Source: Oerskovia flava
GTDB lineage: Bacteria; Actinomycetota; Actinomycetes; Actinomycetales; Cellulomonadaceae
Reading direction: 5' to 3'
Length of the DNA stretch: 64,000 nt
Assembly (NCBI RefSeq): GCF_026163685.1
Contig: NZ_JAOXSR010000010.1
Coordinates: 126,780-190,779 of the forward strand
Below the pieces are notes generated by a model. That model was not told the origin of the DNA and did not search any database. It was given only the letters and a program-made list of their open reading frames with translations. The position numbers were made by a program, and so were the translations under genes. Below are positions 3,768 to 22,118 of the stretch, piece by piece (position 1 is the first letter of the stretch; each line of letters starts with the position of its first letter).

Positions 3768-3791
3768 GCCTCCCCCAGATCGAGGGCTAGG

Positions 3792-4894
3792 TGTACTGAC
3801 CGGAGACGTTGGTCGAGAGAGTGTGACGCGTTGATCTGAGTGGTAGCGCGCGAGGGCCTCCCGCGGTGGAGTGGAACTGCCTAGGTATCCGCTCCGCACA
3901 CAGGAGGCCCTCGTGTCCCACGCTAATGCCGCGCTGACTCCCCGCGCCCGGCTGACGGTCGCCCGGTTGGTGGTCGACCAGCACGTCCCGATCGCGGAGG
4001 TCGCGGCGCGGTTCCAGTGCTCGTGGCCCACGGTCAAGCGGTGGGCCGACCGGTATGCCCACGGCGAGCCGATGAGCGACCGGCCCTCGCGCCCGCACCG
4101 AATGCCTGCCAAGACCGACCAGGCCATCACGCGCCGGATCGTGTCGTTGCGGCTGCGCAAGCGTCTGGGACCCGTCCAGCTGGCTGCACTGACCGGGGTG
4201 GCGCCCTCGACCGCGCACCGGGTCCTGGTCCGCTGCCGGCTCAACCGGTTGTCCCACGTGGACCGGGCAACGGGCGCGCCGGTGCGTCGCTACGAGCACG
4301 CCTACCCCGGTGCGATGCTGCACGTGGACGTCAAGAAGCTCGGCAACATCCCCGATGGTGGCGGGTGGCGGTTCGTCGGCCGCGCCCAGGGTGATCGCCA
4401 CCGAGCCGCCACGCCCGGCAAACCCAAGAACAGGCACCACAACCCGAAGATGGGGCACGCGTTCGTGCACACCGTCATCGACGATCACTCACGGGTGGCC
4501 TACGCCGAGGTCCACGACGACGAGAGAGCCGTCACCGCGACCGGTGTCCTGCGCCGTGCAGTGGCGTGGTTCGCCGCGCGCGGGATCGTCACCGAGCGGG
4601 TGCTATCCGACAACGGCTCGCCCTACGTCTCGCGCCTGTGGCACGAGACCTGCGTCGAGCTCGAGATCAAACACTCCAGGACTCGGCCCCGCCGCCCCCA
4701 GACCAACGGCAAGATCGAACGCTTCCACCGCACCCTGGCCGACGGCTGGGGCTACGCCCGCTGCTACACCTCGGAAGCCGAACGCCGCAACGCTCTGCCA
4801 GCATGGATCCACGAGTACAACCACCACCGACCCCACACCGCCAGCGGGAACAAGCCACCGGTCACCCGATTGACCAACCTGTCCGGTCAGTACA
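3792..4894 (+). mobile_element. IS481-family insertion sequence inside a CRISPR spacer
   Basis: A 1103-bp element. Terminal inverted repeats begin TGTACTGACCGGA on the left (3792) and TGTACTGACCGGA on the right (ending 4894, read on the minus strand), with GGTTGGTC/CGTTGGTC further in. It is flanked by a perfect 6-bp target duplication GCTAGG (3786-3791 and 4895-4900). The remaining 18 nt (3768-3785), one GCTAGG and 9 nt (4901-4909) add up to exactly 33 nt, the normal spacer length, so the insertion is simple and intact. It carries one transposase gene. Confidence 0.95.
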
Positions 4895-4899
4895 GCTAG
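3913..4899 (+). CDS. IS481-family transposase (DDE integrase)
   Basis: Cuts and joins the ends of its own IS element. The N-terminal ~60 residues form a helix-turn-helix (VPIAEVAARFQCSWPTVKRW). The rve-type catalytic core follows: first Asp in LHVDVKKL, second in VLSDNGSPY, and Glu in TNGKIERFHR, the DDE triad with the usual spacing before Glu. About 328 aa, full length with no frameshift. GTG 3913 is chosen because AGGAGG (3902-3907) sits 5 nt upstream; the open frame extends back to 3871 without a site. The frame runs through the right terminal repeat, and its TAG stop (4897-4899) lies in the duplicated target DNA, not in the element. Confidence 0.93.
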   Translation: MSHANAALTPRARLTVARLVVDQHVPIAEVAARFQCSWPTVKRWADRYAHGEPMSDRPSRPHRMPAKTDQAITRRIVSLRLRKRLGPVQLAALTGVAPSTAHRVLVRCRLNRLSHVDRATGAPVRRYEHAYPGAMLHVDVKKLGNIPDGGGWRFVGRAQGDRHRAATPGKPKNRHHNPKMGHAFVHTVIDDHSRVAYAEVHDDERAVTATGVLRRAVAWFAARGIVTERVLSDNGSPYVSRLWHETCVELEIKHSRTRPRRPQTNGKIERFHRTLADGWGYARCYTSEAERRNALPAWIHEYNHHRPHTASGNKPPVTRLTNLSGQYS

Positions 4900-4909
4900 G
4901 GGCGGGGTT

Positions 4910-7900: not shown

Positions 7901-10311
7901 TCGGATCATCCCCGCTCGCGCGGGGAGCACGGCGGCGGTCTCGGCTACGCGTTCGCCGGCGGGGGATCATCCCCGCTCGCGCGGGGAGCACGATCTGGTC
8001 GGGAACCGCGTGCCAGATCTGAGCGGATCATCCCCGCTCGCGCGGGGAGCACTAACGAAGGGATTCATCATGACCGCTCGGAGACGGATCATCCCCGCTC
8101 GCGCGGGGAGCACGGTGCCCCGGTCGCCGTCGCGTCCGGCGGGAACGGATCATCCCCGCTCGCGCGGGGAGCACAGCGGGGAGCGTGAGGGCGTACAGGT
8201 CAGCGTGGGATCATCCCCGCTCGCGCGGGGAGCACAGCGAGTGCGCGGTGCCGGGCACCCCGGCTCGCGGATCATCCCCGCTCGCGCGGGGAGCACGCAC
8301 ATCATTCGTGGTGTGGAATGGGAGCGTGTGGATCATCCCCGCTCGCGCGGGGAGCACTGGCACGTGTTATCCCATCCCTTCCTCGTACAGGGATCATCCC
8401 CGCTCGCGCGGGGAGCACGAGTGGCCCGCCGTGTAGTTGTCGTCCACGGCCGGATCATCCCCGCTCGCGCGGGGAGCACAGTCCCCGCGACCACGGAAGC
8501 GGGACGGCGGGGGGATCATCCCCGCTCGCGCGGGGAGCACCACTGGAGGACGTCTGAGCCCATGAACGCCCAGGGATCATCCCCGCTCGCGCGGGGAGCA
8601 CCCGGTCAGGCTGGGCTTGATGCCCTCGACGGTCGGATCATCCCCGCTCGCGCGGGGAGCACTCGTCCTCGTCCACGACCTTGGCAGGGGTCAGGGGATC
8701 ATCCCCGCTCGCGCGGGGAGCACGGGCTGTACGTGAACGGCAGGACGGCGCCGGCGGGATCATCCCCGCTCGCGCGGGGAGCACTCCTCCTGGGGGGCGA
8801 TGGAGGCGAGCAAGGACGGATCATCCCCGCTCGCGCGGGGAGCACAAGCTCAAGGCCATCGCCGCGCGCCCGGTGAACGGATCATCCCCGCTCGCGCGGG
8901 GAGCACTTGAGCGGTTCGACGATGTACTCGACGATCGTCGGATCATCCCCGCTCGCGCGGGGAGCACGCCTCCCACATTCGACGCGTGCGCTCCGCCAGG
9001 GGATCATCCCCGCTCGCGCGGGGAGCACGATGCGGTCGGATTTGTGCAGCGCGTTTACGGGGGATCATCCCCGCTCGCGCGGGGAGCACGTCGTCGTCAG
9101 CGTCCTCGCCGACACGAAGAAGGGATCATGCCCGCTCGCGCGGGGAGCACTCCGTGGCCGTCACCGTCGCGCAGCTCGCGTCGGGATCATCCCCGCTCGC
9201 GCGGGGAGCACCGTGACGGCGTCGTGGACCGCATGAGCGTCGGCGGATCATCCCCGCTCGCGCGGGGAGCACACCCCGGACGGCGGCACCCTCGAGGGCG
9301 ACGTGGGATCATCCCCGCTCGCGCGGGGAGCACGGTCATCCGACCGTCACCTCCACCGATGCGAGGGGATCATCCCCGCTCGCGCGGGGAGCACTGGACC
9401 ATCCGACCGAGCGCCGTGGTCGCCTTCGGATCATCCCCGCTCGCGCGGGGAGCACATGATGTCGCCTGCGGTGATCTGGGCGGCGGTCGGATCATCCCCG
9501 CTCGCGCGGGGAGCACAAGGGGACGGGCGATGGGGTGTACGAGGACGGCGGATCATCCCCGCTCGCGCGGGGAGCACGTCACCTACGTCCAGGCGGTCGA
9601 CGTCGACACGGGATCATCCCCGCTCGCGCGGGGAGCACAGGGGGTCGACCACGGGGCCCTGAACCTCGAACGGATCATCCCCGCTCGCGCGGGGAGCACG
9701 TGTCGGGCGTTGGGTCGAAAGGCGGCTCGTCGGGATCATCCCCGCTCGCGCGGGGAGCACGTGCACCGTGGCGCCGGCGAACCGGGCCCCGAGGGGATCA
9801 TCCCCGCTCGCGCGGGGAGCACGCCCGTAGACGTCGATCCCGCCGCCGGTGGTTGCGGATCATCCCCGCTCGCGCGGGGAGCACTCGGCGGGGCGGGTGC
9901 GGTTGCGGCTGTGGTGGGGATCATCCCCGCTCGCGCGGGGAGCACGAAGCCCACCCCGAGTACACCGAGGTGCAGGTCGGATCATCCCCGCTCGCGCGGG
10001 GAGCACACGACCGTCACGACCTGCGAGCGCTGGGACACCGGATCATCCCCGCTCGCGCGGGGAGCACGTGATCTCGGCGATCAGGTCGGAAACGGCGATG
10101 GGATCATCCCCGCTCGCGCGGGGAGCACGAGACGAAGGACTTCCCCGAGCTGTGGCAGGAGGGATCATCCCCGCTCGCGCGGGGAGCACCAGAACACGTT
10201 CAGTGCGGTGCCTGGTGCTGCGGGATCATCCCCGCTCGCGCGGGGAGCACAAGCTCAAGGCCATCGCCGCGCGTCCGGTGAACGGATCATCCCCGCTCGC
10301 GCGGGGAGCAC
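4910..10311 (-). CRISPR. Type I-E CRISPR array, leader-proximal segment
   Basis: 89 full-length repeats continuing the same array to the leader junction at 10311. Nearly all are identical; substitutions are seen at 7354 (GCGAGGGG), 7842 (GCATCAT) and 9123 (ATGCCC). Spacers are mostly 33 nt; the one before 5461 is 35. Because crRNA sense is minus, the spacer at 10251-10283 is the newest. Near-identical spacer pairs occur (6466/8358, 8846/10251, 4938/8480), as expected when related phages are sampled repeatedly. Combined with the other segment this gives 124 full repeats. The spacers look like coding DNA of similar GC, but no protospacer source can be named from sequence alone. Confidence 0.98.
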
Positions 10312-10550
10312 ACTAACTGACCTGCGAACATATCAGGATGATCAGGCTCCTGCGATCACTTCGACGGGTCGGCGCCCGGATCAGGCTCGCCACGCGAGTT
10401 GCGGCGCCTTTGCTCGATCGACGTCCCATACCGTCGCCGCCTCGATGCGTTGCTCCATCCTCTGCGGACACCAGAACTCGGGGGACGGTTGTCAGTCGTC
10501 GGGGTGGTGAGGTGATCGCTCTCGGAGGAAATGCCGCCTGACCGCGACCT
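10312..10550 (-). promoter_or_regulatory. CRISPR leader region
   Basis: The stretch between the newest repeat (ends 10311) and the conserved core of cas2, read on the minus strand into the array. It contains a 10-bp direct repeat GATCAGGCTC at 10340-10349 and 10379-10388 (39 bp apart) close to the integration site, and is somewhat richer in A/T near the array (AACATATCAGGATG). The cas2 reading frame stays open through most of it, to 10356, so leader and cas2 3' end overlap. The promoter for pre-crRNA should lie here or within cas2; no single -35/-10 pair stands out. Confidence 0.7.
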
Positions 10551-10880
10551 TTCACGGTTCGAACGGCGGGCGCTGTCGTCCAACTCGGCGGCGAACTTGC
10601 GCGACTCGGCGGTCTGTCGACGCATGAGCGTCACTCCGTCGTGGTCTGCAGTCTCCCACGCGTGGTTGTGGACGCGGAAGTCCAGCCTTTGCTCCGTCGT
10701 GGTGGACCACACCATGAGGGCGCGTCCGCGGCTCACGTCCTCGACGATGCGCAGCCACAAGAGCTCGCGAACACGGGCCGATACGTGCCCGACGTAGACG
10801 CCGGCGGAGATCTCCAGCAGCCATCGGGTGAGCTCGCCGCGGAGCTTCTCCGGTGTCACGGACAGCACGACGACGATCAC
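10356..10880 (-). CDS. cas2: CRISPR-associated Cas2 (type I-E) with an unusual C-terminal extension
   Basis: Cas2 dimers bridge two Cas1 dimers in the spacer-integration complex. Residues 1-88 match Cas2e: a beta strand (VIVVVLS), then LRGELTRWLLEISAGVYVG and VSARVRELLW, all family hallmarks. GTG 10880 follows a GAGGA site and overlaps the cas1 stop by 4 bp (GTGA), indicating translational coupling. E. coli Cas2 is about 94 aa; here the frame runs 174 aa, adding about 80 residues of Ser/Arg-rich, low-complexity sequence that reads through the leader to within 45 bp of the array. The extension may be disordered protein or simply the absence of a stop codon in the leader. Confidence 0.92.
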   Translation of the reverse strand: MIVVVLSVTPEKLRGELTRWLLEISAGVYVGHVSARVRELLWLRIVEDVSRGRALMVWSTTTEQRLDFRVHNHAWETADHDGVTLMRRQTAESRKFAAELDDSARRSNRERSRSGGISSESDHLTTPTTDNRPPSSGVRRGWSNASRRRRYGTSIEQRRRNSRGEPDPGADPSK

Positions 10881-11830
10881 CAGTCCGTTTCCTCGCCCGA
10901 GCCGTAGCTGACCCCGCCCGACACCGCTCCGAACCTGCCGTCCCAGAGCATCGAGACGTCCGCCCATTGGTCGAGCTCATTCGGATCCCTGATCAGCAGA
11001 CTGGTGATGTCTCGCACGCACCGCTCCAGCAGCTTCGCCTTGTGCAAGCGGTCGCGCATGTCGCGACGCACGTGCCCTCCGACATCCGCGAGATCCTGTG
11101 CCGCGGCGTCGAACGCGGCGGGGATCGCAAACTCCGCCTTGTAGAGATCAGCAATGTCGTAGACGAACGACCTCTCGTGCCCGGTGTGCACGAACCCGAG
11201 CCCTGGTGAGCAGCCGAGTGCTACGACGACAGCGTGCACAACTCCGTACAGGCACGTCGTCGCAGCCGAGAGCGCTTGGTTCACCGCGTCCGACGACCCG
11301 AAATCGTCGGGCCGATACTCCCGCCGCTCCCAGGGCACGCCCGTGCGTTGGGAGTGCTCTCGGTAGGACTTTCGGACTCTCGCGCCCTCCCGGCCGCGGA
11401 GCTGCTGCATCGTCAGGCCCGAGACCTCTTCGTCGGGGAATCGCATCTCGTACATCGCACGTGCGACAGCAAGTCGCGAATCGCGACGCGTCACGAGCTC
11501 AGCCTGCGCCTCGAGCAGACGAGAGGACTTGGCCAACGAGCGCCCGTGTGCGTAGTAGCGAACGCCGCGCTCCCCCACCCACACGACGGTCGCCCCACTT
11601 TCGGCGAGCAGGACCATCGCCTGGTGCGTGACGTTCGTCCCGGGCCCGAGGAGAAGCGCGCCGAGCGTCGCGGCCGGGACGTGCACCGTGCCGCGCTCAT
11701 CGGTAGCCGTGATCGCGCTCGCGTCGCGCGAGATCACGCACCGTTCGAGGTACAAGAACGTCAGGCGGTCCTGGGCGCGCACCAGCTCCGGAAGGGTCGG
11801 CGGGCGCGCGCCCGGGATCTGTTGGTTCAT
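10877..11830 (-). CDS. cas1: CRISPR integrase Cas1 (type I-E)
   Basis: The metal-dependent integrase that joins prespacers to the leader-proximal repeat. About 317 aa (E. coli 305). Conserved active-site regions are visible: Glu in the ARAMYEMRF region, His in GLGFVHTGHE and Asp in VYDIADLYKAEF, matching the E/H/D triad of type I-E Cas1. The N-terminal beta domain contains LTFLYLERCVI and ATLGALLLGPGTNVTH. ATG 11830 overlaps the cas6e stop by 4 bp (ATGA), so it is favoured over ATG 11860, which would lie well inside cas6e. It is coupled to cas2 downstream by another 4-bp overlap. Confidence 0.97.
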   Translation of the reverse strand: MNQQIPGARPPTLPELVRAQDRLTFLYLERCVISRDASAITATDERGTVHVPAATLGALLLGPGTNVTHQAMVLLAESGATVVWVGERGVRYYAHGRSLAKSSRLLEAQAELVTRRDSRLAVARAMYEMRFPDEEVSGLTMQQLRGREGARVRKSYREHSQRTGVPWERREYRPDDFGSSDAVNQALSAATTCLYGVVHAVVVALGCSPGLGFVHTGHERSFVYDIADLYKAEFAIPAAFDAAAQDLADVGGHVRRDMRDRLHKAKLLERCVRDITSLLIRDPNELDQWADVSMLWDGRFGAVSGGVSYGSGEETDW

Positions 11831-12519
11831 CGAACTGGTGCCAACGTGAGCAGCCCGCACCCGTAGCCCTTGGCGGGACCGAGACCGGTCACGAGCGCGT
11901 CACGCAGCCTGGCGGGGTCGCTCACCTCGAGCAGACCGTCGAACGACGCCGTCACGAGTGTCACGGTGCGCCCACCCCGCTGGAAGCGCCGGGTCTGACG
12001 GTCGTGCACGACGACGCCCCCACCCTCCCCGGGAAGAGTGAACCCCCAGTCGTCGGTGCGCCCGGCGAACCAGTTCAGCTGCTGCTCCACGGTGACGTGA
12101 CCGTAGCGTCGGGTCTTGGGTCGACCCTTCGCATTGAGCTCCACGGCCTCAGGCGCCGCTTCGCTCATGCGGCCTCGGCGCGCGGTGCTTCGTGTGGGAT
12201 TGGCCGTCAACCTGAACGCCCACCGCTGCCCCTCGACGAGCCCGTCGAGTACGGGGGCGTAGGGGCGCGTGTCCCAGCCCCGCTGCGTCGACGGCCATCC
12301 AGCGTCCTCCACAATTGCGGTGAAGTCCGGCTCGTACCGACTCACCACGTAGAGCCATACATGGTGCGCGTCGCGGTCGACACGCCAGAGGACCCTGCCG
12401 CGTTCGTCGTCGGGGTGCGGGAACGCCGAGAGGACGGCTGCGTGCATGGACTGAGGTGAGCCGAGCAGCTGCCGAGATGCCCGTCGCGCCGAGTTGATCT
12501 GAACACGCGAGAGGAACAT
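11827..12519 (-). CDS. cas6e: CRISPR RNA endonuclease Cas6e
   Basis: Cuts pre-crRNA at the base of each repeat hairpin and stays bound to the 3' stem-loop in Cascade. About 230 aa. N-terminus MFLSRVQIN matches the first ferredoxin-fold strand of CasE. His in SPQSMHAAVLSAF is the likely catalytic histidine of this family. The C-terminal GLGPAKGYGCGLLTLAPV is the characteristic glycine-rich loop with the G-x-x-K-x-Y-G-x-G pattern. Its start follows the cas5e stop with no gap (TGAATG), and its end overlaps cas1 by 4 bp. The matching substrate is the 6-bp GC stem in the repeat. Confidence 0.96.
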   Translation of the reverse strand: MFLSRVQINSARRASRQLLGSPQSMHAAVLSAFPHPDDERGRVLWRVDRDAHHVWLYVVSRYEPDFTAIVEDAGWPSTQRGWDTRPYAPVLDGLVEGQRWAFRLTANPTRSTARRGRMSEAAPEAVELNAKGRPKTRRYGHVTVEQQLNWFAGRTDDWGFTLPGEGGGVVVHDRQTRRFQRGGRTVTLVTASFDGLLEVSDPARLRDALVTGLGPAKGYGCGLLTLAPVR

Positions 12520-13254
12520 TCACCGGCCCCCCAGTGCAGCCATCGGGTCATGACCCCGAGGACCGGGCCCAGCTTGCGCGGTCTCTACCAGGTCGTTCGC
12601 GACCAGCACCGCATGGCGCTCCACGGTGCGCCACGAGTACGACCGGCGTCGCGGATCGAACGAGACAGGAGCGTCGTGATGGGTCGTCACCGTCTTGTCG
12701 GAGCCCGCCTCGGCCGGGACGACACCAACGTCGACGATGAGGTCGAGCGTCACCTGCGGGTCGCTCCGCCGTTTCCACCACGCCGAGGCTTGCCACGGGT
12801 ACTCGTGAAGGACCGACCACGCCGACTCTTCGTGGACGCCCAGGGTGAGCTGGCCCTCCGGCGTGAACGCACGGCGCCCGAGGTAGAGCGGAAAAACCGG
12901 GCGCCGTACCGCCTCGTCGAGAGCCTGCACGATCTCCTCCGCACCCTCGACTGCAGCGAGGAAGACAGCATCCGACCGGAAGTACCGTTGGGTGAGCGGA
13001 AAGCTCTTCGACTTGTCGAGTGTCATGGCGGTCTGGAAGTCCCGCTCGACCCTGCCCGGTTGGTCGATGCGCACGGCGAGCTGGAGACCCAGCAGGTCCT
13101 CGATCGGATCTGTCCTACGCCGTCCGAGCGCAGCCGCCAGCAGGCCGACGACTCCGCTCTTGGTGGGCGCCTCATTGGTGTCCCGGCGCGCGAACCGGGA
13201 GTCCTCGCCCCAGGACTGTTGTGGTCCGGCGAGCCTCAGCAAGAGCGTCGTCAT
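12520..13254 (-). CDS. cas5e: Cascade subunit Cas5e
   Basis: Caps the 5' handle of the crRNA in Cascade and helps recruit the Cse1 subunit. About 244 aa. The N-terminus TLLLRLAGPQQSWGEDSRFARRDT followed by TKSGVVGLLAAALGR is the typical Cas5e signature (LxGPxQSWG, then PTKSGxxGLLAAALG). An HDAPVSFDPRRRSY region is near the C-terminus. It overlaps cas7e by 4 bp at its start (ATGA) and abuts cas6e directly, so it is in the middle of one coupled operon. Confidence 0.97.
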   Translation of the reverse strand: MTTLLLRLAGPQQSWGEDSRFARRDTNEAPTKSGVVGLLAAALGRRRTDPIEDLLGLQLAVRIDQPGRVERDFQTAMTLDKSKSFPLTQRYFRSDAVFLAAVEGAEEIVQALDEAVRRPVFPLYLGRRAFTPEGQLTLGVHEESAWSVLHEYPWQASAWWKRRSDPQVTLDLIVDVGVVPAEAGSDKTVTTHHDAPVSFDPRRRSYSWRTVERHAVLVANDLVETAQAGPGPRGHDPMAALGGR

Positions 13255-14396
13255 GTGGCGTCCGTCGTGTCGGCGACCTGAAGTCGCGTGCTCACCGTCG
13301 CCGTCGCCGCCTCGACGAGCGCAGCGAACGAGAGAGCCGAGCCCAAGGGTGCCAGCCTGTCGGCGATCGGCCCGACGCCGACCGTCCAGGTCTGCACAGC
13401 GCTGCTCAAGAAGGCAGCCTCAACATCTCTCGCTTGGGCGACGAGCTTGTCGACCGACGCCGCGACCCTGCCGCCCGCCAGAGAGTCGGGTACCGGCTCC
13501 TCGAACGCTCCCACCAAGGACACCGGCTGGTCCTCCCGCAGCGAAACAACGACGGCGTCCGGCACAGTGCGGTTCGCGAACGTGTTCTGCTTTCCCGTCG
13601 GCATGCTCGTGACGAAGGATCGCAAGAAGGCGGCGACAGCGCGTTCGGTCGCTGCGGCGTCTCCGAGGTTCTGGTGAAGTCGGTCCACGTCGACCGTCGC
13701 GTAGCGGTAGAGCGTGGAGGAGTTGAACTCCACCGTGCCGATCATGCCCGCGCCTGCGTCCTCTTCCGCGTCGGCCGCCTTGTGGTCGTCGACAGCGGTG
13801 TAGTAGTCGAACTCGTTGTCCACCTTGTGCGTCGAGATCGCATGCGCCACCTGACAGGCCGCGTCGACGTTCAGGTCCGAGACGTCCGCGACCATCCGGC
13901 CGAAGAGCGCTAGGTCGATCGAGTTCTTGCCCTTCACCAGGGGTTGCGCCAAGGCCCTTGTCGGAGCGACCCCCGTGGTCAGCGAGTCCGCCCCCAACTG
14001 GGCAAGCGCCTCGATCTGCTGGGCAGACAGGAAGAGCAGGTATCCGGACTCGGCGGGCGCGCCTGCCTTGCCCCGCGGCTCAGCGGTCTTGATGCCGGCT
14101 TCTTTGAGCACCTGGGCCGCGGCAGCAAGCGCATTTTCGGTCGTGTGGCCAGTGGAGATCTCGGCGATCCGTGCACCGACGAGCTCGACGACGCGCTTGG
14201 TACGTGTTCCGAGCTCTGTTGCATCGAGGTGTCCCTGGAAGGCGGTCCGTGTCGCACGCTTCCAGGCCTGGGATGACACCCGGGCTCGACGCACTCCGCC
14301 GTAGGTCGCCGTCTTCGGGCTGCCGGTGTCGTCGCGGTTGAGATTGCTCGGAGGGACTGTCTGCAGGACATGGATGTCCAGAATCGTGCGGCTCAC
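13251..14396 (-). CDS. cas7e: Cascade backbone subunit Cas7e (Cse4/CasC)
   Basis: Six copies form the helical backbone that holds the spacer part of the crRNA and force every sixth guide base out of the duplex, the property relevant to the guide-like RNA upstream of cas3. About 381 aa, close to the family length (E. coli 363). Signature sequences: N-terminal HVLQTVPPSNLNRDDTGSPK, then RARVSSQAWKRA, and ISTHKVDNEFDYYTAVDD in the thumb region. It overlaps cse2 by 4 bp upstream and cas5e by 4 bp downstream. Confidence 0.97.
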   Translation of the reverse strand: MSRTILDIHVLQTVPPSNLNRDDTGSPKTATYGGVRRARVSSQAWKRATRTAFQGHLDATELGTRTKRVVELVGARIAEISTGHTTENALAAAAQVLKEAGIKTAEPRGKAGAPAESGYLLFLSAQQIEALAQLGADSLTTGVAPTRALAQPLVKGKNSIDLALFGRMVADVSDLNVDAACQVAHAISTHKVDNEFDYYTAVDDHKAADAEEDAGAGMIGTVEFNSSTLYRYATVDVDRLHQNLGDAAATERAVAAFLRSFVTSMPTGKQNTFANRTVPDAVVVSLREDQPVSLVGAFEEPVPDSLAGGRVAASVDKLVAQARDVEAAFLSSAVQTWTVGVGPIADRLAPLGSALSFAALVEAATATVSTRLQVADTTDAT

Positions 14397-15085
14397 GCGT
14401 GCTCCTCAGTCTCGTCGGTGCTCTCGGTGCTGGCGGTCGGGGATACCGTTGAATCGTCGACGGTGCCGGGCTTGTCGAGCCTGTGGTACTGGCGCCCCCA
14501 TCGGCGTCGAACGGCGTCGGCCTGCCCGGGGCGTTGGAACTGCAGCAGATCGTCCGCGAGCGCCCCGTAGTCGAGGCCGATGCTCTCGCCGCGCATCTGT
14601 GTCACCAGACCACGCATGTGGTGGGTGAGGTCGTCGACGCTGCTCGCGGTCACCACGATGTTGAACCGCCGGCGTACGGGGCCCGTACCGTCGTCGGCGT
14701 CCTGTCGGGCACGTCCTAGCTGCCACACGGCACGGCCGAAGCCGACCCCTCGCACATGCATCGGAGCATCCCTGGCCTGCTGGTGAAGCGCGAACAGGGT
14801 CATGGCTGCATGTACCGCTCTCTCGGCTGTGGTCGGGTCGTCGCTCCGCGCGTCAGGTGACACGTCTCGCAGTGTCACGTCCCAGATCGACGGGTCGCGG
14901 CCGGGCGGGCGCCCGACGTTGTTGCGCAGCCGTGCCAGAGTGGCGACCGCTGTCGAGCTCTCACGAGTCCTGAGCAGCCGTCGGACCCGCGTATCGACGA
15001 GCCTGCCGAGTTCGTGCTGCCCGCCGGTGCTCGACCCGACGGGTGCAGGAACGTCCTCATCGCTCGCGACTGTCTGCTCGCTCAT
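14393..15085 (-). CDS. cse2: Cascade small subunit Cse2 (CasB)
   Basis: A dimer of this subunit stabilises the R-loop in Cascade. About 230 aa, longer than E. coli CasB (160) because of acidic, low-complexity tails (SEQTVASDEDVPAPVGSS at the front; Ser/Thr/Glu-rich at the end). The helical core contains LARLRNNVGRPPGRDPSIWD and, later, TLFALHQQ, which fit the family pattern. Its position between cse1 and cas7e supports the call. It overlaps both neighbours by 4 bp. Confidence 0.93.
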   Translation of the reverse strand: MSEQTVASDEDVPAPVGSSTGGQHELGRLVDTRVRRLLRTRESSTAVATLARLRNNVGRPPGRDPSIWDVTLRDVSPDARSDDPTTAERAVHAAMTLFALHQQARDAPMHVRGVGFGRAVWQLGRARQDADDGTGPVRRRFNIVVTASSVDDLTHHMRGLVTQMRGESIGLDYGALADDLLQFQRPGQADAVRRRWGRQYHRLDKPGTVDDSTVSPTASTESTDETEEHA

Positions 15086-16791
15086 GCCATGACCTCCTCG
15101 TCGTCGACTCTCTTCGTCTGTTCCACGGCTTGCGGCGGGTAGCTGTGGGGCAGGATCTCTCGCAACTTCTTCCGGAACCTGTACTCGGCCAAGCCGGCGT
15201 CCATGTACTGGTCGCCGACCATCCGCCCGACGACCGCACCAGGGCCGGCATCTGCAATGACCTCACCCGCCAGGCGTGACAAGACGGTCTGCACCTGCAC
15301 CTGCCATCGGGTGCGCGCGTCGACCTCGTCGGCCGTGACCGCAAGGGTGCGGAGCCACTCCCGGAACGGGCCGTCGAGAGCGTCGAACCCGCGTTCCCTC
15401 GCGCGCTCCTGCGGTCCCTCGGCAGCGTCGGGTGATGCGCCTGCGGCGCGTGCGACGTTCTGCGCGAGGTAGCCGAGGTGGAGCACGGCCTTGTCCGCCT
15501 GGTCGACGGCATCGACGGCGCTCTGCGCAAGCCCGGCAGCGGACTCGCTCAGGAGTGACAGAGATAGAGACAACTTGTCGTCGATGACGGCACCGATCGC
15601 TGTCTGGTTGCTCTCGTACGTCGCACCGATGGCGCGTACACCGACGAGCCGGTCGTCGAGCATGCCGGAAAGCTGCAAAGTCCGCAGCCACGTGACGACC
15701 GCCGGCACCAACCGCTCCGACTGCCCGTCCTTGGTCCTTCGTTCGGTCGCGTGCGGCAGGAGCGACTCGAGGCCACGCCACAGCGCACGCCCGGGGACGA
15801 GTTCGAGCGGCATGTAGACGGGCTTCTTAAACTTCGCCGTCTGAGGCTTGGAGTGTCGCCAGGAGGTGAGCGGTTCGAGTCGTTGCCTGAACTGCGGCGT
15901 GGCTCGGTCTCCTTGAGCGTTGACGACGCCCGTCACGTAGGCCTCGTCGCCGACGAGTCGGACTCGGCGAGACTGCCAGGTGTAGAGATCAACAGGCCCG
16001 GTCGGCTCACGGTAGAGGTGATTGGCGGCGTCGGACTCCAACCAGTCTTCCGGGCGGGCGTCCAGCGGGGGCCGCTCCCAGACAGGCTTGTCGGGCTGCC
16101 GCGTCTCCAGCCCTGACCTGCCGGCGACCACAAGGTTCAGCATCAGCGTCTCCTGGAGGGTGTCACCGACGAGGTGGATGCCTCCGATCTGGCCCGCCCA
16201 CCCGGTCCCGATCGGATACCCCTTCCCTCCCTTGACGCGTGGGTCCCCGACTGCGCCGGAATGGATGCCCGACACGTCGTACGCGTGGACATGGACGAGC
16301 CAGCGCGCGGCCTCCGCCCAGGTGATCCGGCTCAGTCCCTCCCCCAACCGTGTCGTCAGGTAGGCGGAGTTCCCGGGGCCGTCAGCGATGATCTCCGCAG
16401 GAGACTTCAGCTCGCCGTTCGTGCTCTCGAGCCCCGCCACCTGGAAGAACGGTTCCGTGGCATGAACGAGCCAGAACCGGTCCCGGAAGCGTTCCAGGTA
16501 CTGCTCCACGCGCTCGACGGTCGAAGACCAGTTGCTGCGGATCTCACCCCATTCCTTCTCGCTACGTGGCCCTGTCTCGCGACTCGTTCCGACGGCGCGG
16601 TGCAGGATCGCGAGGAGCAGGCGAAGGTTCGCGAACGTCTGCGTCGGCAGCTCGCCGGTCAGCTCACGTAGCTCCCCGGCACGACGAAACGCGTCGACGA
16701 GCGAAAGGTCCGTCTGCTGCCCTTGGTGGTCGAGCGCGGGTAACCAGGCGCTGTCGATCAGGTTGAACCACGGGGCGAGATCTTCACTCAT
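15082..16791 (-). CDS. cse1: Cascade large subunit Cse1 (CasA/Cas8e)
   Basis: Recognises the PAM, starts target unwinding and recruits Cas3. About 569 aa (E. coli 502). N-terminus FNLIDSAWLPAL and [38 protein letters not shown] is the standard Cse1 opening. Later LVHATEPFFQVAGLES and SAYLTTRLGEGLSRITWAEAARWLVHVHAYD match the conserved core, and a four-helix C-terminal region follows. It overlaps the cas3 end by 8 bp and cse2 by 4 bp. Confidence 0.97.
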   Translation of the reverse strand: MSEDLAPWFNLIDSAWLPALDHQGQQTDLSLVDAFRRAGELRELTGELPTQTFANLRLLLAILHRAVGTSRETGPRSEKEWGEIRSNWSSTVERVEQYLERFRDRFWLVHATEPFFQVAGLESTNGELKSPAEIIADGPGNSAYLTTRLGEGLSRITWAEAARWLVHVHAYDVSGIHSGAVGDPRVKGGKGYPIGTGWAGQIGGIHLVGDTLQETLMLNLVVAGRSGLETRQPDKPVWERPPLDARPEDWLESDAANHLYREPTGPVDLYTWQSRRVRLVGDEAYVTGVVNAQGDRATPQFRQRLEPLTSWRHSKPQTAKFKKPVYMPLELVPGRALWRGLESLLPHATERRTKDGQSERLVPAVVTWLRTLQLSGMLDDRLVGVRAIGATYESNQTAIGAVIDDKLSLSLSLLSESAAGLAQSAVDAVDQADKAVLHLGYLAQNVARAAGASPDAAEGPQERARERGFDALDGPFREWLRTLAVTADEVDARTRWQVQVQTVLSRLAGEVIADAGPGAVVGRMVGDQYMDAGLAEYRFRKKLREILPHSYPPQAVEQTKRVDDEEVMA

Positions 16792-19780
16792 GCAGGCTCA
16801 CGCTCATTCCTGTGCGGCGGTCGTAGCGGATATCGAGTCCGGCCACGCAGGCACGGCCGGTGCGGTCGAGGGACAGGACGAGCTGCCCCTTCAAAGCCGG
16901 GTGCTCCTGCCAGGCGTCCCGCACGTCTACTTCCAGTGCTTCGATGAGATCGGCGACGGGGTCAGGCATTCCGTGCCGACGCGGGAGGAAGCCAGGCAAC
17001 CGCACGCTGCATCCCGCGAGCGTGCGCAACTGCGCCGCCCGGGGCACACGATCTCGGGGGAGCTCCCGATCCTCGGGTACGTCGCGGTCGAGCCAGTCGG
17101 GCAGTCTCCACTGGTCTGCGCCGTCGGTCTGGACCACCAGGACCTCGATGCCGTCCTCTCCGTCACGCACCTGCGCCCGTCCTGAAGACTCGTCCGCCTC
17201 TCCGACGCTCTGGTCGAGCCATCCCACCAAGTTGGCCTCTGACCCGGCCGCCGGGGCCGGGAGCCGATAAGTCGCCGCGCGTGACTCGGCATGGCGTTCT
17301 CTTGCATCGGAGCTCGAGCGGGCACGGAGCATGTCGTCCTGCCACGTGTCAGGCCCGAGTGCATCCTCGCCATATGCCTCTTGGACCAACGGCGAGATGT
17401 GACGTGGTAGCTCGATACCTCCCGAGCCAGCGATGATGTTGCGGACCTGCGCGGCTGCTCGAAGCAGCAGGTGCCTCCCGTAGACGGCTTCGCTCCCCCG
17501 GGGGAAGGCCGGTGGGCCGCCTGCGCGGTCCGTCATGCCGACGATCACGATCCGGGCCACTCGTAGCTCCTCGGGTCGGTGGTCCGCAGGACGGGCGTGG
17601 CGGTGGAGCCGGCCGACGCGCTGGAGCAACAGATCGGTCGGTGCGAGATCAGTGACAAGGAGGTCGAAGTCCACATCGAGGCTTTGCTCCACGACCTGGG
17701 TCGCCACGACTATCCGGCGTACGACGGGTCGCGCTCCCCTCGTGCCATCGGCTGGCGGCGGTCCGAGCTCCCTCACCAACTGCGCCTCACGCACCTTGCG
17801 GTCCAACGCGAGGAACCGAGAGTGCAAGAGCTCGACCTCGTCGCCAAAGTGCGCTTCGAGCGCCTCGTACGTCTCTTGCGCGCGAACAACGGTGTTCCGC
17901 ACCACGAGAACGCACCCCGCTGACACCGTCGCCTCGGTGACACGCCGGACCAACGTGTCGAGGTCGTCATCTGCCAGGTCGATCTTCACGTCAAGCACTC
18001 GGTCGGCGGCGTCGACGGCTGTGCTCTGCATCACGCCGGACTGCATCGAGGTCACCACCGTGGACGGGGAGTCGCTCGCGGAACCACGGATCGCGGACAC
18101 CTCGCGATCGTCACCCGGTTCGTCATCCCAGTCCGACTCCCACAGCGAGGCCGATTGGGCGGACCCTGCCCCCACCACCGTGCGGTTGCCGCGGTTGTAA
18201 GCGGCGTGGAGCCGTTCGCGAAGATGCGTGGGAAGCGTCGCCGACATGGCAACCACCGGAACCCCGTAGGCGCCGAGCCACTCCAGCGCGCGCTCGAGGT
18301 AGCTGTTCATGTACGCATCAAAAGCGTGGACCTCGTCCAACACCACCACCTTCCTCGCGACCGCGAGGTGACGTAGCGCCACGTGCCGTGACTGCAGCGC
18401 TGCGAAGAGCACCTGATCGATGGTGCCGACGACGAAATCGGCGAGGACCCCCTTCCGGTGGCCTGAGAGCCAACCGTCGACGTACGCGGCACCGAAGCGA
18501 CCTGAACCGCTCACTCCGTCTCCAATGTCCCGACCGATGTCGCGGGTGCCCGGCAGGCGTCGCGGAATCGCCGCGAAGTCTGGGTTGAGCCATGACTTGC
18601 CGTGCGCGAGGAAGACGGCGTGCGCGCCGTCGTCGTCCACGACTCCGGCAGGGTGCGCGAGGGCTTTAGCAACGCCGGAGGCGGGAATGCCCACCTGCCA
18701 TTGCAAGACGCGGCGGAACATCGCGTCGGTCGTCGCCTGGGTCGGGAGCGCGACGAGCAGTCCACCAGCGCCACTTCGCGCGGCGAGGATCTCGGCGGCG
18801 AGCAGCGCAGCCTCGGTCTTCCCTTCGCCCATCGGAGCCTCCACGATGAGCATCCCAGGAACATCCATCCGTCGGGCCGCGTCGACGACCGCCCTCTGCA
18901 CAGGACGGGCGGTGGCCGACTCCGGGAACCGGAACCGGGCGCGAAGCAGTTCGTCCGCGCCCTCCAGCAGGTCGGTCGCCGACCACGGCGAGGGCAGGCG
19001 GACCTTCGCCCAAGCCGCCGCGAGGCGTACCTCGTCGTCGTCCGGCGGGGCGAGGGGGTGCCCGTCCTCGACGGGACTCAGCGGGAAGAGCTCGGTGTTG
19101 GAGGCGAGCCAGTCGGCGACGACCACGATGCTCGTCACGAGGACCTGCACGGTGTCCGGTACCTCGCGCCACGCGTGTCCGGCGAGGAATCGCGTCGCTC
19201 CCGTACGGCGCGCCATGTGATCGAGGATCTCGTCCTGGACGTCGCGCCATGCCCGGTCACCGAGGAGTAGGGCGTTGATGCTCGAGTCGAGCGTTGCCTC
19301 ACGCACCTCGGAGGCGCTCGGCGGGATCCCGTGATGCCCGCCAACCACGACGGCCAAGCGATCCGCCTCGGGACCCACCCACTCATGCTCTTCTCGCAAC
19401 CAGCGACGCAGGATCACGTGCCCGGCAAGGCTGTGCGGACGACGTCGCCGCTCGACCACCGGGATGTCCTTCGGCATCGAGAGCCCTGCCTTGACCATCT
19501 CGTCACGCAGGGTCGGGACCTGCACGGCGAACGCCGGGCTGAGCTTCCCGCAGTCGTGGACTCCCGCGAGAAACGTGACGAGCGACCGCGCAGCATCTTC
19601 GCTGCCCGTCGCGTCAACGACCTGACGCGTGACCATCGGAGGGAGCCAGCAGTCCCACAACCTGCTCGCTATCGCTGCTGAGTCCTGCAGATGCCTCCAC
19701 AACGGGTTCCAGTGCTCGATCTCGGCGCGCATCGGCCAGCTCTTGCCCCACGCCGCCCGTGCCCCCGCGCTCAGCATCAC
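16784..19780 (-). CDS. cas3: CRISPR-associated helicase/nuclease Cas3 (HD domain first)
   Basis: Cascade recruits Cas3 to nick, unwind and degrade target DNA. About 998 aa. The HD nuclease (roughly residues 20-240) shows HLQDSAAIASRLWD, GVHDCGKLSPAF and VGGHHGIPPS. The superfamily 2 helicase follows: Walker A APMGEGKTEAAL near residue 320, DEVH in VLDEVHAFD near 482, MSATLP, and QRVGRLHRH in motif VI. First gene of the cas operon. GTG 19780 or ATG 19777 are both possible (GTGATG) and no ribosome-binding site is obvious; the 5' untranslated stretch from the AT-rich promoter is about 130 nt and contains short ORFs. Confidence 0.97.
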   Translation of the reverse strand: MMLSAGARAAWGKSWPMRAEIEHWNPLWRHLQDSAAIASRLWDCWLPPMVTRQVVDATGSEDAARSLVTFLAGVHDCGKLSPAFAVQVPTLRDEMVKAGLSMPKDIPVVERRRRPHSLAGHVILRRWLREEHEWVGPEADRLAVVVGGHHGIPPSASEVREATLDSSINALLLGDRAWRDVQDEILDHMARRTGATRFLAGHAWREVPDTVQVLVTSIVVVADWLASNTELFPLSPVEDGHPLAPPDDDEVRLAAAWAKVRLPSPWSATDLLEGADELLRARFRFPESATARPVQRAVVDAARRMDVPGMLIVEAPMGEGKTEAALLAAEILAARSGAGGLLVALPTQATTDAMFRRVLQWQVGIPASGVAKALAHPAGVVDDDGAHAVFLAHGKSWLNPDFAAIPRRLPGTRDIGRDIGDGVSGSGRFGAAYVDGWLSGHRKGVLADFVVGTIDQVLFAALQSRHVALRHLAVARKVVVLDEVHAFDAYMNSYLERALEWLGAYGVPVVAMSATLPTHLRERLHAAYNRGNRTVVGAGSAQSASLWESDWDDEPGDDREVSAIRGSASDSPSTVVTSMQSGVMQSTAVDAADRVLDVKIDLADDDLDTLVRRVTEATVSAGCVLVVRNTVVRAQETYEALEAHFGDEVELLHSRFLALDRKVREAQLVRELGPPPADGTRGARPVVRRIVVATQVVEQSLDVDFDLLVTDLAPTDLLLQRVGRLHRHARPADHRPEELRVARIVIVGMTDRAGGPPAFPRGSEAVYGRHLLLRAAAQVRNIIAGSGGIELPRHISPLVQEAYGEDALGPDTWQDDMLRARSSSDARERHAESRAATYRLPAPAAGSEANLVGWLDQSVGEADESSGRAQVRDGEDGIEVLVVQTDGADQWRLPDWLDRDVPEDRELPRDRVPRAAQLRTLAGCSVRLPGFLPRRHGMPDPVADLIEALEVDVRDAWQEHPALKGQLVLSLDRTGRACVAGLDIRYDRRTGMSVSLHE

Positions 19781-19869
19781 TGGGACCCCGCTATCGAAGA
19801 GAGTGCCGACTTAGATTGCCCACGGCGTATCACGAGAAGGGCTAGCCCCTCCCTGACCGTGAGCTTCAT
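19777..19869 (-). CDS. Possible 30-aa leader ORF coupled to cas3
   Basis: ATG 19869 opens a 30-codon frame whose TGA overlaps the cas3 start (GTGATG). Residues LLVIRRGQSKSALSSIAGSQ resemble the first helices of an XRE-type helix-turn-helix, so it could be a remnant of a regulator. It also contains rare codons for this genome (CTA, ATA twice), a feature of CreT-type RNA toxins. No ribosome-binding site is seen. A still shorter frame (ATG 19914, 14 codons, MSERSAKEVSVLPS) precedes it. Translation of either is unproven. Confidence 0.3.
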   Translation of the reverse strand: MKLTVREGLALLVIRRGQSKSALSSIAGSQ

Positions 19870-19896
19870 GATCACGACGGTAGCACCGAAACTTCC

Positions 19897-19926
19897 TTAG
19901 CGCTACGCTCACTCATATACACATTA
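19897..19926 (-). promoter_or_regulatory. cas operon promoter region with a protospacer-like match to the upstream guide RNA
   Basis: The most AT-rich stretch in the area, on the minus strand upstream of cas3. TAATGT (19926-19921) is the best -10-like hexamer; no good -35 is visible. The 26 nt from 19922 down to 19897 match the pseudo-spacer at 20001-20026 at 20 of 26 positions. Mismatches are at guide positions 6, 12, 18, 20, 24 and 25. The three bases 5' of the match are AAT, compatible with an AAN-type I-E PAM, and they lie inside the -10 box. Binding of Cascade here should block initiation at the cas promoter (inference). Confidence 0.65.
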
Positions 19927-19962
19927 TTCTTCTCCGAGGATGTCGCGACCCCCTGCTCTCGA

Positions 19963-19968
19963 TAGAAT
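19963..19968 (+). promoter_or_regulatory. -10 box for the mini-CRISPR RNA
   Basis: TAGAAT, a near-consensus -10 hexamer on the plus strand. Transcription would start about 7 nt downstream, at about 19975, right at the beginning of the first pseudo-repeat. The -35 region is weak (TGTCGC near 19941). Confidence 0.5.
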
Positions 19969-19971
19969 CGA

Positions 19972-20086
19972 CCCGTTCCCGACTTGGTCGGGATGATCCG
20001 GTGTACATGAGCGAGCGGATCGCACAGTGCTCCCCGTGTCGCGGGGCGTGAGGCGGGCGTGCCAGCTCTCAAGCCAGACACGCCCG
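19972..20086 (+). ncRNA. Mini-CRISPR / crRNA-like regulatory RNA (CreR/CreA-type)
   Basis: On the plus strand, opposite to the array. Pseudo-repeat 1 (19972-19999) keeps the 3' end GGGATGATCC followed by G, so the eight-nt Cascade 5' handle ATGATCCG is intact; its stem is a different but paired sequence, CCCGAC/GTCGGG. The pseudo-spacer is 20001-20026 (26 nt, shorter than normal). Pseudo-repeat 2 (20027-20054) begins GTGCTCCCCG with stem CCCCG/CGGGG, the 3' hairpin Cas6e holds, but its 3' end is degenerate. A hairpin follows at 20054-20086. The guide matches the cas promoter region with mismatches mostly at every sixth base. CreA/CreR RNAs of this layout beside cas genes are established for other type I systems; the assignment here rests on sequence only. 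Confidence 0.7.
20054..20086 (+). terminator. Hairpin ending the mini-CRISPR RNA
   Basis: CGGGCGTG (20054-20061) pairs with CACGCCCG (20079-20086) around a 17-nt loop, immediately after the second pseudo-repeat. No T-run. The remaining stretch 20087-20276, up to the end of the DUF4262 gene, holds nothing I can identify. Confidence 0.5.
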
Positions 20087-20276
20087 TCTCCTCCCGGCGG
20101 CGCGGCGTCGGACCACACGACGGTTGTGCTCCGCTTGCTTGCGCAAGGATCAGAGCCGCTCAACAACGCCGTGGTGTCCGCGGTCCCGGAGATGGCACCG
20201 ACCGAACGACTGGTTGACGAGCACGACCCACGGATCCGGTCCTCGAGGACGAAGTGGGACGGTCCAGCGACTCACC

Positions 20277-21161
20277 TCATTGATCTGGCGACTCTGCGGG
20301 CGAATAGAGCGCCGGTTGTGCGCACCGTGGGTTGAAACCCTGTTCCCAGGGCATGCGATGAGCCTTGTCCGGCAGGACGAGCTGCCGGACGGGGACCTCG
20401 CACCCATAGGTCTCGTACGCACAGCCGAGCGGGTCTGCGAGCTCGACGACGCTCCTCAGCTGAGGGGCGTAGCCACCGTCCAGCAGGCCCTCGATCCGCT
20501 CACCATCAGGGATGCTCGTTCCCCCGAGGAGCCGCTCGGCGACATCGTCGAGCAGTCGCCCACCTGCTTCCTCTGCCAAGCCGTAGACGATGAGCTCAGG
20601 GATCCTCTTGTCCCAGAGCCCGACCGTGTACTGGAACTCCTGCGCGGAAGGGTCTTCCGGCCGGACCGACACGACCGTCCAGCCGTACGCGTCGATCTGC
20701 TCCCGAACCGACATGCCCCTCGTCGGGCGCGATCCGACCTGTCGAGGAACCGCGGCGGCCCGATCTCCATCGCCCAAGGGAAGGTCTCGTGTCAGTCCGG
20801 CCTGCTTCATGCTGGCGGTGTCCGATTCGAGCAGTTCGACCAGATCACGATCCCGGTACGGCCCGAAGACGTGCCACGAGCCAGTCTCTCCGTCCCGCAC
20901 CCCCCGAATGGCGTACTGGCCGGGCCTCAGGTCGAGAGAGAGCAGGTCACGGTCCATCTCCGGCACACGCCCAGGCGCGACGATCACCGGATCGTCGTCA
21001 TCCGCCTCCTGCAGCGACAGGACCAACCACTCACCGTCGTGCCAGTAGAGGACGAGAGCCGGGGCGAATCCGTGGTCCGTGACCTTCGAGCTCGTGGTGA
21101 TCGTCGCCGCGGTGGCTAGTGAGACCGGTCGCTTCTTTCGCCCTCGACCCTGCCACTTCAT
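20277..21161 (-). CDS. DUF4262-domain protein with an uncharacterised N-terminal half
   Basis: About 294 aa. The C-terminal ~150 residues match the DUF4262 pattern: AYGWTVVSVRPED, FQYTVGLWDKRIPELIVYGL, then LGCAYETYGCEVPVRQLVLPDKAHRMPWEQGFNPRC. DUF4262 proteins have no established function. The N-terminal half (TDHGFAPALVLYWHDGEWLVLSLQEAD and GQYAIRGVRDGETGSWHVFGPYRDRDLVELL) is not recognised and may be a second domain. The gene ends 190 bp before the mini-CRISPR RNA, in the same orientation as the cas operon. A link to CRISPR is only positional. Confidence 0.75.
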   Translation of the reverse strand: MKWQGRGRKKRPVSLATAATITTSSKVTDHGFAPALVLYWHDGEWLVLSLQEADDDDPVIVAPGRVPEMDRDLLSLDLRPGQYAIRGVRDGETGSWHVFGPYRDRDLVELLESDTASMKQAGLTRDLPLGDGDRAAAVPRQVGSRPTRGMSVREQIDAYGWTVVSVRPEDPSAQEFQYTVGLWDKRIPELIVYGLAEEAGGRLLDDVAERLLGGTSIPDGERIEGLLDGGYAPQLRSVVELADPLGCAYETYGCEVPVRQLVLPDKAHRMPWEQGFNPRCAQPALYSPAESPDQ

Positions 21162-21194: not shown

Positions 21195-22118
21195 TCAGCC
21201 CGCGGGCGTGACGCGAGCGGCGACGGCGTCGGCGAACCGGTCGAGGGCTCCGGGTGCGAATCCGAAGAAGAGTGACGGCTCGGTGAGCTCGAGCTCGATG
21301 ACGGTCGGTACGTCGTTGTCGCCGACGACCAGGTCGACGCGGGCGTAGAGGTACGGGCCGTCGCCGGGTACGGCCTTCGCGGCCACCTCGAGTGCACGGC
21401 GGGCGACGTCGATCTCCGCCTCGGTCGCCTCGTGGCGCCGCATCTCCTCCTGCTTGTACAGGCCCTGCGTGGGGCGGTGCGGGCCGGTGAGGAGGGCGTT
21501 CTTGCGCAGCGCGTGGGAGAACTCGCCGTCGATGAAGACGATGCAGGTCTCCCCCGCGGTGTCGACGCTGCGGATGTACGGCTGAACCATGACCTGCCGC
21601 CCGGAGACGAGGAGCGCCTTCGCGTGCTGGATCGCGAGCCCGCGGGAGTACGCCTCACCGGACTGGTAGCGGCCGGTGTCGTTCGCGCCCGCGCTCACGA
21701 CGGGCTTGATGACGAAGTCGCCCTGGGCGGGCAGACGGGTGTGGATCGCGCGCGAGGAGAGGTTGCGCTCGGGGTCGAGCCACAGCGTCGGGATCACGGG
21801 GACGCCGTGCGCGTCCAGCTCGCGCAGGTAGCCCTTGTCCGTGTTCCAGCGCACGACGGGCTCGGGGTTCAGCAGGTGAGGCACCCGGGCCGCCCAGGCC
21901 ACGAAGTCGTCGCGGCGCGCCGAGTAGTCCCACGTGGAGCGCAGCACGACGGCGTCGAAACCGGACCAGTCGACGGACTCGTCGTCCCAGACCGCCGGCT
22001 CGGCGTCGACCCCGCGCTCGGCGAGCGCGCCGATCAGGGGCGCGTCGTCGGGGTCCAGGTGGGGCAGGACGGAACAGGTGGCAAGGGCGACCCGCGGTCG
22101 CGTCGTCTCGGTGGTCAC
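21195..22118 (-). CDS. ATP-grasp domain protein
   Basis: About 307 aa. The overall arrangement is of an ATP-grasp ligase of the RimK/glutathione-synthetase type. The N-terminal pre-ATP-grasp region starts RVALATCSVLPHLDPDD. The central Lys in GDFVIKPVVSAGANDTGRY binds ATP, and the C-terminal DLVVGDNDVPTVIELELTEPSLFF carries the acidic and polar metal ligands. Such enzymes join a carboxylate to an amine; the substrate cannot be told. It stands alone, 33 bp from the DUF4262 gene, and may be cotranscribed with it. Three Cys residues are scattered, with no cluster. Confidence 0.8.
   Translation of the reverse strand: MTTETTRPRVALATCSVLPHLDPDDAPLIGALAERGVDAEPAVWDDESVDWSGFDAVVLRSTWDYSARRDDFVAWAARVPHLLNPEPVVRWNTDKGYLRELDAHGVPVIPTLWLDPERNLSSRAIHTRLPAQGDFVIKPVVSAGANDTGRYQSGEAYSRGLAIQHAKALLVSGRQVMVQPYIRSVDTAGETCIVFIDGEFSHALRKNALLTGPHRPTQGLYKQEEMRRHEATEAEIDVARRALEVAAKAVPGDGPYLYARVDLVVGDNDVPTVIELELTEPSLFFGFAPGALDRFADAVAARVTPAG

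Follow-up and report, generated by a model that had tools for sequence, protein, structure and literature searches.

Background

CreR, reportedly described by Liu et al. in 2023, is said to be a cas-regulating RNA of mini-CRISPRs. It reportedly also occurs in type I-E systems. A survey of CRISPR-derived regulatory RNAs was reportedly presented by Shmakov et al. in 2023; these RNAs are derived from repeats, lie near cas genes and are located outside arrays, which is also the situation of the locus described here.

According to a review, autorepression of cas by CreR has been described, and CreR occurs in type I and type V-A systems (PMC12737573). For CreA of type I-B, the original study reports that pairing at guide positions 1-5 and 7-11 suffices and that changes at positions 6 and 12 are tolerated, as was shown by mutation (PMC8501985). 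Every sixth base is left unpaired by Cascade (PMC12871591), the seed of the Escherichia coli Cascade comprises positions 1-5 and 7-8 (PMC5904413), the size of the backbone tracks crRNA length (PMC6828817), and shortened spacers in type I-B repress without interference (PMC10989794).

The window, i.e., the whole stretch of 64,000 nucleotides of Oerskovia flava that was analysed (contig NZ_JAOXSR010000010.1), contains a two-repeat mini-CRISPR on the plus strand, upstream of the minus-strand cas3 gene. Judging from its sequence, this element is most likely a type I-E CreR. With CreR, it shares a predicted crRNA-like gene with a repeat-derived handle, which lies outside the array and adjoins the cas genes, and an incomplete match, on the PAM side, to a site that precedes the cas operon (20/26, with an AAT flank). 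Its likeness to CreA of the CreTA modules (PMC8501985, PMC9458426) comprises two degenerate repeats, one guide, a PAM-flanked target, pairing at 1-5 and 7-11, and freedom at 6 and 12; the window differs from these modules in that it is type I-E, its pairing reaches the third and fourth blocks, and no toxin gene was identified in it. The guide is shorter than the array spacers, as in the shortened-spacer crRNAs of the Haloarcula I-B system, although the shortened spacers of that work were engineered (PMC10989794), whereas here they are natural, with lengths clustering about six apart. CreR-like autorepression and the freedom of positions 6 and 12 are already known, and the more novel part of the present results is a class-wide signature.

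Structure of the mini-CRISPR and its surroundings

The window harbors a complete type I-E set consisting of cas3, cse1, cse2, cas7, cas5e, cas6e, cas1, cas2 and an array. The array spacers are 33 nt long in 115 of 122 cases, and the spacer of the mini-CRISPR is 27 nt long. A first-pass annotation of this DNA had placed upstream of cas3 two degenerate repeats with a handle, a compensated stem and a GC hairpin, a guide between them, a TAGAAT box before them and a hairpin after them; all of these are present in the sequence at the same positions (Table 1).

Table 1 Coordinates of the features of the locus in the window
Feature	Position	Strand	Remarks
Main CRISPR array	1664-10311	-	124 repeats (≤2 changes), 122 spacers, one 1.1-kb interruption
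cse1, cse2, cas7, cas5e, cas6e, cas1, cas2	10356-16791	-	
cas3, first operon gene	16784-19780	-	ATG at 19777-19775
TGCTACCGT, predicted extended -10 of cas promoter	19877-19885	-	by eye; target covers the -35 place
Target (protospacer strand)	19897-19922	-	20/26 matches to guide
AAT in PAM place of target	19923-19925	-	read from the sequence
TAGAAT, predicted -10 box of mini-CRISPR	19963-19968	+	14 nt 5' of repeat 1 stem
Degenerate repeat 1	19972-19999	+	type I-E repeat; compensated 7-bp stem (19977-19993), ATGATCC handle end
Predicted 8-nt 5' handle ATGATCCG of guide RNA	19993-20000	+	last 7 bases as in the array repeat
Guide	20001-20026	+	26 nt; 27-nt spacer including G20000
Degenerate repeat 2	20027-20054	+	predicted 3' hairpin
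Long G+C hairpin, possible transcript end	20050-20090	+	predicted fold; inverted repeat without T run

The stem of repeat 1 consists of a perfect 7 bp (19977-19983 with 19987-19993), and two of its pairs are altered on both sides relative to the array repeat, i.e., the changes are compensated. The terminal ATGATCC of this repeat is directly followed by the G at 20000. Repeat 2 begins with GTGCTCCCCG and has the stem CCCCG/CGGGG; it lacks an ATGATCC handle of its own and would therefore provide no second 5' handle. The predicted fold of 19969-20090 retains the repeat 1 hairpin, and the hairpin of repeat 2 is missing from the predicted minimum-energy structure.

No good -35 was seen before TAGAAT, and a consensus scan of 19760-20300 revealed no sigma-70-type promoter, either for the mini-CRISPR or for cas3. 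In the same interval, the terminator scan found no T-run terminator and did not call the G+C hairpin that ends the element, and an Rfam search of 19700-20200 gave no match up to E = 1.

Match between the guide and a site upstream of cas3

The guide had been claimed to match the minus strand at 19922-19897 in 20 of 26 positions, with misses at 6, 12, 18 and 24 and also at 20 and 25, and this comparison was reproduced exactly. The matching site is approximately 100 bp away. Within positions 1-17, all 15 non-sixth positions match (15/15), and pairing extends to position 23, except for 18 and 20. The target bases at 6, 12, 18 and 24 are T in all four cases.

An important question is whether such a match could be accidental. 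The chance expectation of a 15/15 non-sixth match in the 2-kb neighbourhood is ~1e-5; the best score of 3000 random guides in this neighbourhood was 14 of 15, and the best of the 122 array spacers was 12 (11 with an AAN flank), or 14 over 10.4-64 kb. With the sixth bases left free, the 17-nt core pattern has two occurrences in the entire 4.1-Mb genome, the guide and the target. A chance match is thereby rejected: the agreement of guide and target greatly exceeds random expectation and has no second instance in the genome. Kinship of the guide with an array spacer was also rejected, the best of the 122 spacers sharing 14 of 26 positions with it.

In Streptomyces avermitilis, the I-E system is reported to have AAN as its effective PAM (PMC12231136). 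In the array of the window, the first spacer base, which is likely the third PAM base, is C in 62 cases, G in 56, A in 3 and T in 1, i.e., C or G in 118 of 122. The AAT flank of the target differs from this preference, which counts against the explanation favored below.

The target may belong to the cas promoter, as the first-pass annotation held. The AAT-flanked target is situated 119 bp upstream of the cas3 ATG, and a candidate extended -10, TGCTACCGT (minus strand, 19885-19877), lies 12 bp from it; in genome G237 this motif has a counterpart, TGCTACTGT, with TTGCGT 17 bp before it (both by eye). The -35 place inside the target reads TAGCGC, a poor match to the consensus, and the consensus scan of 19760-20300 returned no promoter here, TGCTACCGT being absent from its output. 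The stretch between the target and cas3 also contains a 30-aa open reading frame (minus strand, 19777-19869), the stop of which overlaps the cas3 ATG.

Guide-target pairs in related genomes

Homologues of cas3 were found in 20 of 221 genomes of the family, 37 of 396 of the order, 47 of 394 of the class and 85 of 297 of the order of G771; these samples overlap, and those of the family, order and class each include the window's own genome. Set 1 comprised 158 cas3-upstream regions of Actinomycetes, including that of the window. With arrays masked, the regions were scanned for a stem followed by a handle, under search rules fixed after G000, G195 and G237 had been seen; the threshold for a match was at least 12 of the 15 non-sixth positions, and the flank considered was AAN. 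The regions of G136, G364 (400 bases only), G902, G981, G1034, G1157 and G1188 and the second copies of G961 and G946 remained unscanned. Loci L005-L007 (Clostridia) were outside the survey, and inspection of L005 and L006 revealed nothing convincing.

The scan yielded 258 candidates outside arrays, distributed over 128 loci, and 937 in-array guides, which were used as controls. Among 104 matches of at least 12/15 produced by the candidates outside arrays, 35 were AAN-flanked, compared with 0 of 97 for the in-array guides (after removal of 1453 rows that fell in masked N); the AA background was 2.7%. The 35 AAN-flanked matches represent 32 guides in 32 of the 158 loci, and their flanks are AAC (19), AAG (9), AAT (6) and AAA (1). 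All 32 loci display the same anatomy with differing guides, and each guide matches an AAN-flanked site at its own locus. When the 32 guides were tested on the regions of other loci, 8 of 5024 cross pairs attained 12, and 3 of these 8 were between near relatives. No such guide-target pair was found in 126 of the 158 regions, though 128 have a repeat-like candidate. Guide and target had been expected to co-vary among relatives, and the 32 loci bear this out, with positions 6 and 12 at chance. Within one genus, the guides of G968 and G1026 differ at position 3, and the target at the better-matching site of G968 differs likewise. When the 330-bp region was used as a DNA query, the window itself was the sole match among 59 genomes; thus, it is the anatomy that is conserved and not the sequence.

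Relative to the guide, the target is nearer to cas3 in 18 of the 32 loci, the window among them, and farther from it in 14. In 13 of 31 loci, a TANNNT motif precedes repeat 1 by 10-25 nt (mean of the shuffles 5.7, maximum 12, as many in 0 of 1000). For this count and for the mismatch and A/T counts given below, G274, a near copy of G530, was dropped, which leaves 31 guides; it was kept among the 32 guides and among the 29 mini-CRISPRs measured for length. In G810, G968 and G974 (L075, L095 and L107), one guide has a pair of AAN-flanked sites separated by 24-48 bp, which resemble double operators.

Positions that pair and positions that are free

A pick made without any positional rule (at least 13 of 17 matches plus AAN) gave 28 guides. 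Of their 89 mismatches, 22 fall at position 6 and 20 at position 12 (42/89), and 0 of 100,000 permutations gave as many at these two positions. There were no mismatches at 1, 2, 4, 5, 7 and 8, which agrees with the reported seed of the E. coli Cascade (PMC5904413); the same six positions always match in the 32 guides of set 1. Further along the guide, pairing in set 1 weakens over positions 13-17 and has fallen to the chance level at 18, and the window element is among the longest-reading examples. Matches at 6 and 12 number 12 of 62, against 25.5% expected of free positions (P 0.17); selection for mismatch at these positions, as opposed to mere freedom, is therefore unsupported.

The targets show a further regularity. 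Their bases at 6, 12, 18 and 24 are A or T in 26, 25, 23 and 20 of 31 cases, respectively, compared with 52% at the other positions of 1-17, and the excess for 6 and 12 together has a P of 7e-7, without phylogenetic correction. The guides have A or T at these positions in 10, 15, 12 and 14 of 31. Since the target is A/T-rich at the sixth bases while the guide is not, we infer selection for easily flipped bases.

Mismatches at position 9 were also raised in set 1 (9 of 31 guides), which hinted at a period of 3 nt; Jung et al. reportedly described such a periodicity for Cascade in 2017. The position-9 misses were rejected as a real pattern because they were not replicated in set 2.

Guide lengths

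The centre-to-centre distance of the repeats was measured in 29 mini-CRISPRs: 12 had 49-51, 2 (the window and G195) had 54-54.5, 1 had 58 and 14 had 60-63.5. The repeats of arrays are spaced at 61 in 789 of 873 cases. Subtraction of the 28-nt repeat leads to guides of ~21, 27 and 33 nt, which differ by 6 nt each, the length that a single Cas7 covers. This suggests that the predicted guides of mini-CRISPRs cluster near these three lengths. The 92 measurable candidates outside arrays that lack a target have scattered spacings with no clear steps (10 at 61).

Replication in a second set

Predictions were recorded before the second set was seen. This set 2 comprised 66 additional regions, of which the order of G706 contributed 58 and the remainder of the order of G771 contributed 8; identical guides were collapsed. 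Six guides passed, with a mismatch at position 6 in 6/6 and at position 12 in 3/6, and their targets have A or T at 6, 12 and 18 in 5, 3 and 5 of 6. The repeat spacings were 50, 56, 60.5, 60.5, 61 and 61, and the prediction for position 9 failed in these six guides. Set 2 replicates the position 6 pattern and the remainder only partly. AAN flanks were present in 6 of 47 matches outside arrays vs 4 of 68 in arrays, an array control that is not clean, since the mask had assigned to it four guides with AAN-flanked matches, including that of G1376 (15/15).

These four guides, from the Streptomycetales G1376, G1289, G1212 and G1335 (L185, L204, L225 and L197), stand between array-type repeats and match nearby AAN-flanked sites. 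All four miss at 6 and 12, and that of G1376 matches at all 15 non-sixth positions, so regulators may sit inside array ends, and the arrays of Streptomycetales may contain regulatory spacers.

Possible functions of the element

The explanation that we favor, with a probability of approximately 0.8, is that 19963-20090 is a two-repeat mini-CRISPR with a predicted crRNA-like guide that would load into the I-E Cascade and likely repress the cas3 operon, i.e., feedback of the CreR type. An autoregulatory I-E guide had been proposed in the first-pass annotation, and the matching of guides to their own sites in 32 of 158 loci, together with the freedom of positions 6 and 12, supports it. Autoregulation of cas fits best because 18 of 32 loci, including the window, have the target on the side of the guide that faces cas3; the complete I-E operon with Cas6e and the -10-like box at a constant position ahead of repeat 1 also speak for it. 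The lack of a consensus promoter for cas3 or the mini-CRISPR and of the repeat 2 hairpin in the predicted fold speaks against it, as do the 14 loci with the guide nearer to cas3, the 126 regions that yielded no pair, the fixing of the search rules after three loci had been seen, and the AAN flanks of set 2 (6 of 47 vs 4 of 68).

Under autoregulation, the mini-CRISPR would be transcribed from the TAGAAT box and its transcript cut by Cas6e, and the guide, with its 27-nt spacer, would assemble a Cascade one Cas7 shorter, which would pair with the target in 5+1 steps. Bound to the AAT-flanked target, Cascade may obstruct RNA polymerase where the -35 region is predicted, with no cleavage by Cas3. 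Abundant Cascade or a scarcity of array crRNAs would strengthen the repression of cas, and cas transcription would rise when crRNAs or anti-CRISPRs draw Cascade off.

The place of the 30-aa reading frame (19869-19777, minus strand) between the target and cas3, with its stop on the cas3 ATG, would also suit a CreTA-like addiction module, in which the guide is an antitoxin RNA repressing a tiny toxin and the loss of Cascade is toxic; in Haloarcula hubeiense, a creTA is located directly upstream of a cas operon (PMC8501985). However, tandem rare codons were not seen by eye in a mini-ORF at the locus, and in place of the 30-aa frame G195 has an unlike 24-aa frame and G237 none. The antitoxin alternative, which the first-pass annotation had left standing, therefore found no support, and we give it a small chance. 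There is a slim chance that the guide chiefly represses the mini-CRISPR's own promoter and holds its own dose constant, control of cas being secondary: the target of the window lies 41-66 bp upstream of TAGAAT, and 9 of 32 loci carry the guide on the same strand as cas, with the target lying upstream of the guide on the other strand. Such an arrangement agrees poorly with the target on the cas3 side in the window and 17 other loci and with a predicted cas -10 located 12 bp from the target.

Two other readings would deny the element a guide function today. A decayed end of an array, with a spacer taken from the genome itself, would explain why repeat 2 has no handle, why both repeats are degenerate and why the flank is AAT; we regard such a relic as very unlikely because the stem changes are compensated and because the pairing positions have been kept, with 6 and 12 free, in the window and 31 other loci. 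The inverted orientation of guide and target relative to each other could also be that of an operator for a DNA-binding protein, an imperfect inverted repeat overlapping repeat-like sequence by accident, but direct orientation also occurs at other loci, and the handle, the AAN flank and the sixth-base pattern would be unaccounted for, which makes the likelihood of this reading close to negligible.

Returning to Cascade autoregulation, we tentatively propose, at somewhat less than even odds, that I-E regulatory guides follow a code: pairing blocks of five bases, an operator with A/T at 6, 12, 18 and 24, and lengths in Cas7 footprints (33, 27 and 21 nt), by which Cascade would be tuned to occupy a promoter while Cas3 is not licensed. 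Both the preference for A/T at sixth bases and the stepped guide lengths may be new; no title or abstract opening on either subject in natural regulators was found in the literature searched, which is weak evidence of novelty, most subscription papers being outside the search. If the proposal is true, the reading rule of Cascade, known from engineered targets, would be readable from natural genomes as paired versus free positions, and the locus would show how guide trimming may turn a DNA-cutting system into a repressor of its own operon. It would also offer a simple search rule for such regulators (stem, handle, AAN and 5+1 match) and make the separation of binding from cleavage testable.

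Other features of the window

The locus is adjoined by a gene for a 294-aa protein with a DUF4262 domain (20277-21161, minus strand); 21195-22118 (minus strand) encodes a 307-aa protein whose match to the DcsG (D-cycloserine synthetase) model is below the cut-off (275.7 vs 360 bits). Past the far end of the main array, 1551-1633 holds two repeat-like copies that are strongly degenerate, with changes at 8-9 of 28 positions. The interruption of the array at 3768-4909 (1142 bp) is an insertion-sequence-like element, with a 342-aa open reading frame (3871-4899, plus strand) that contains integrase-core and transposase helix-turn-helix domains.
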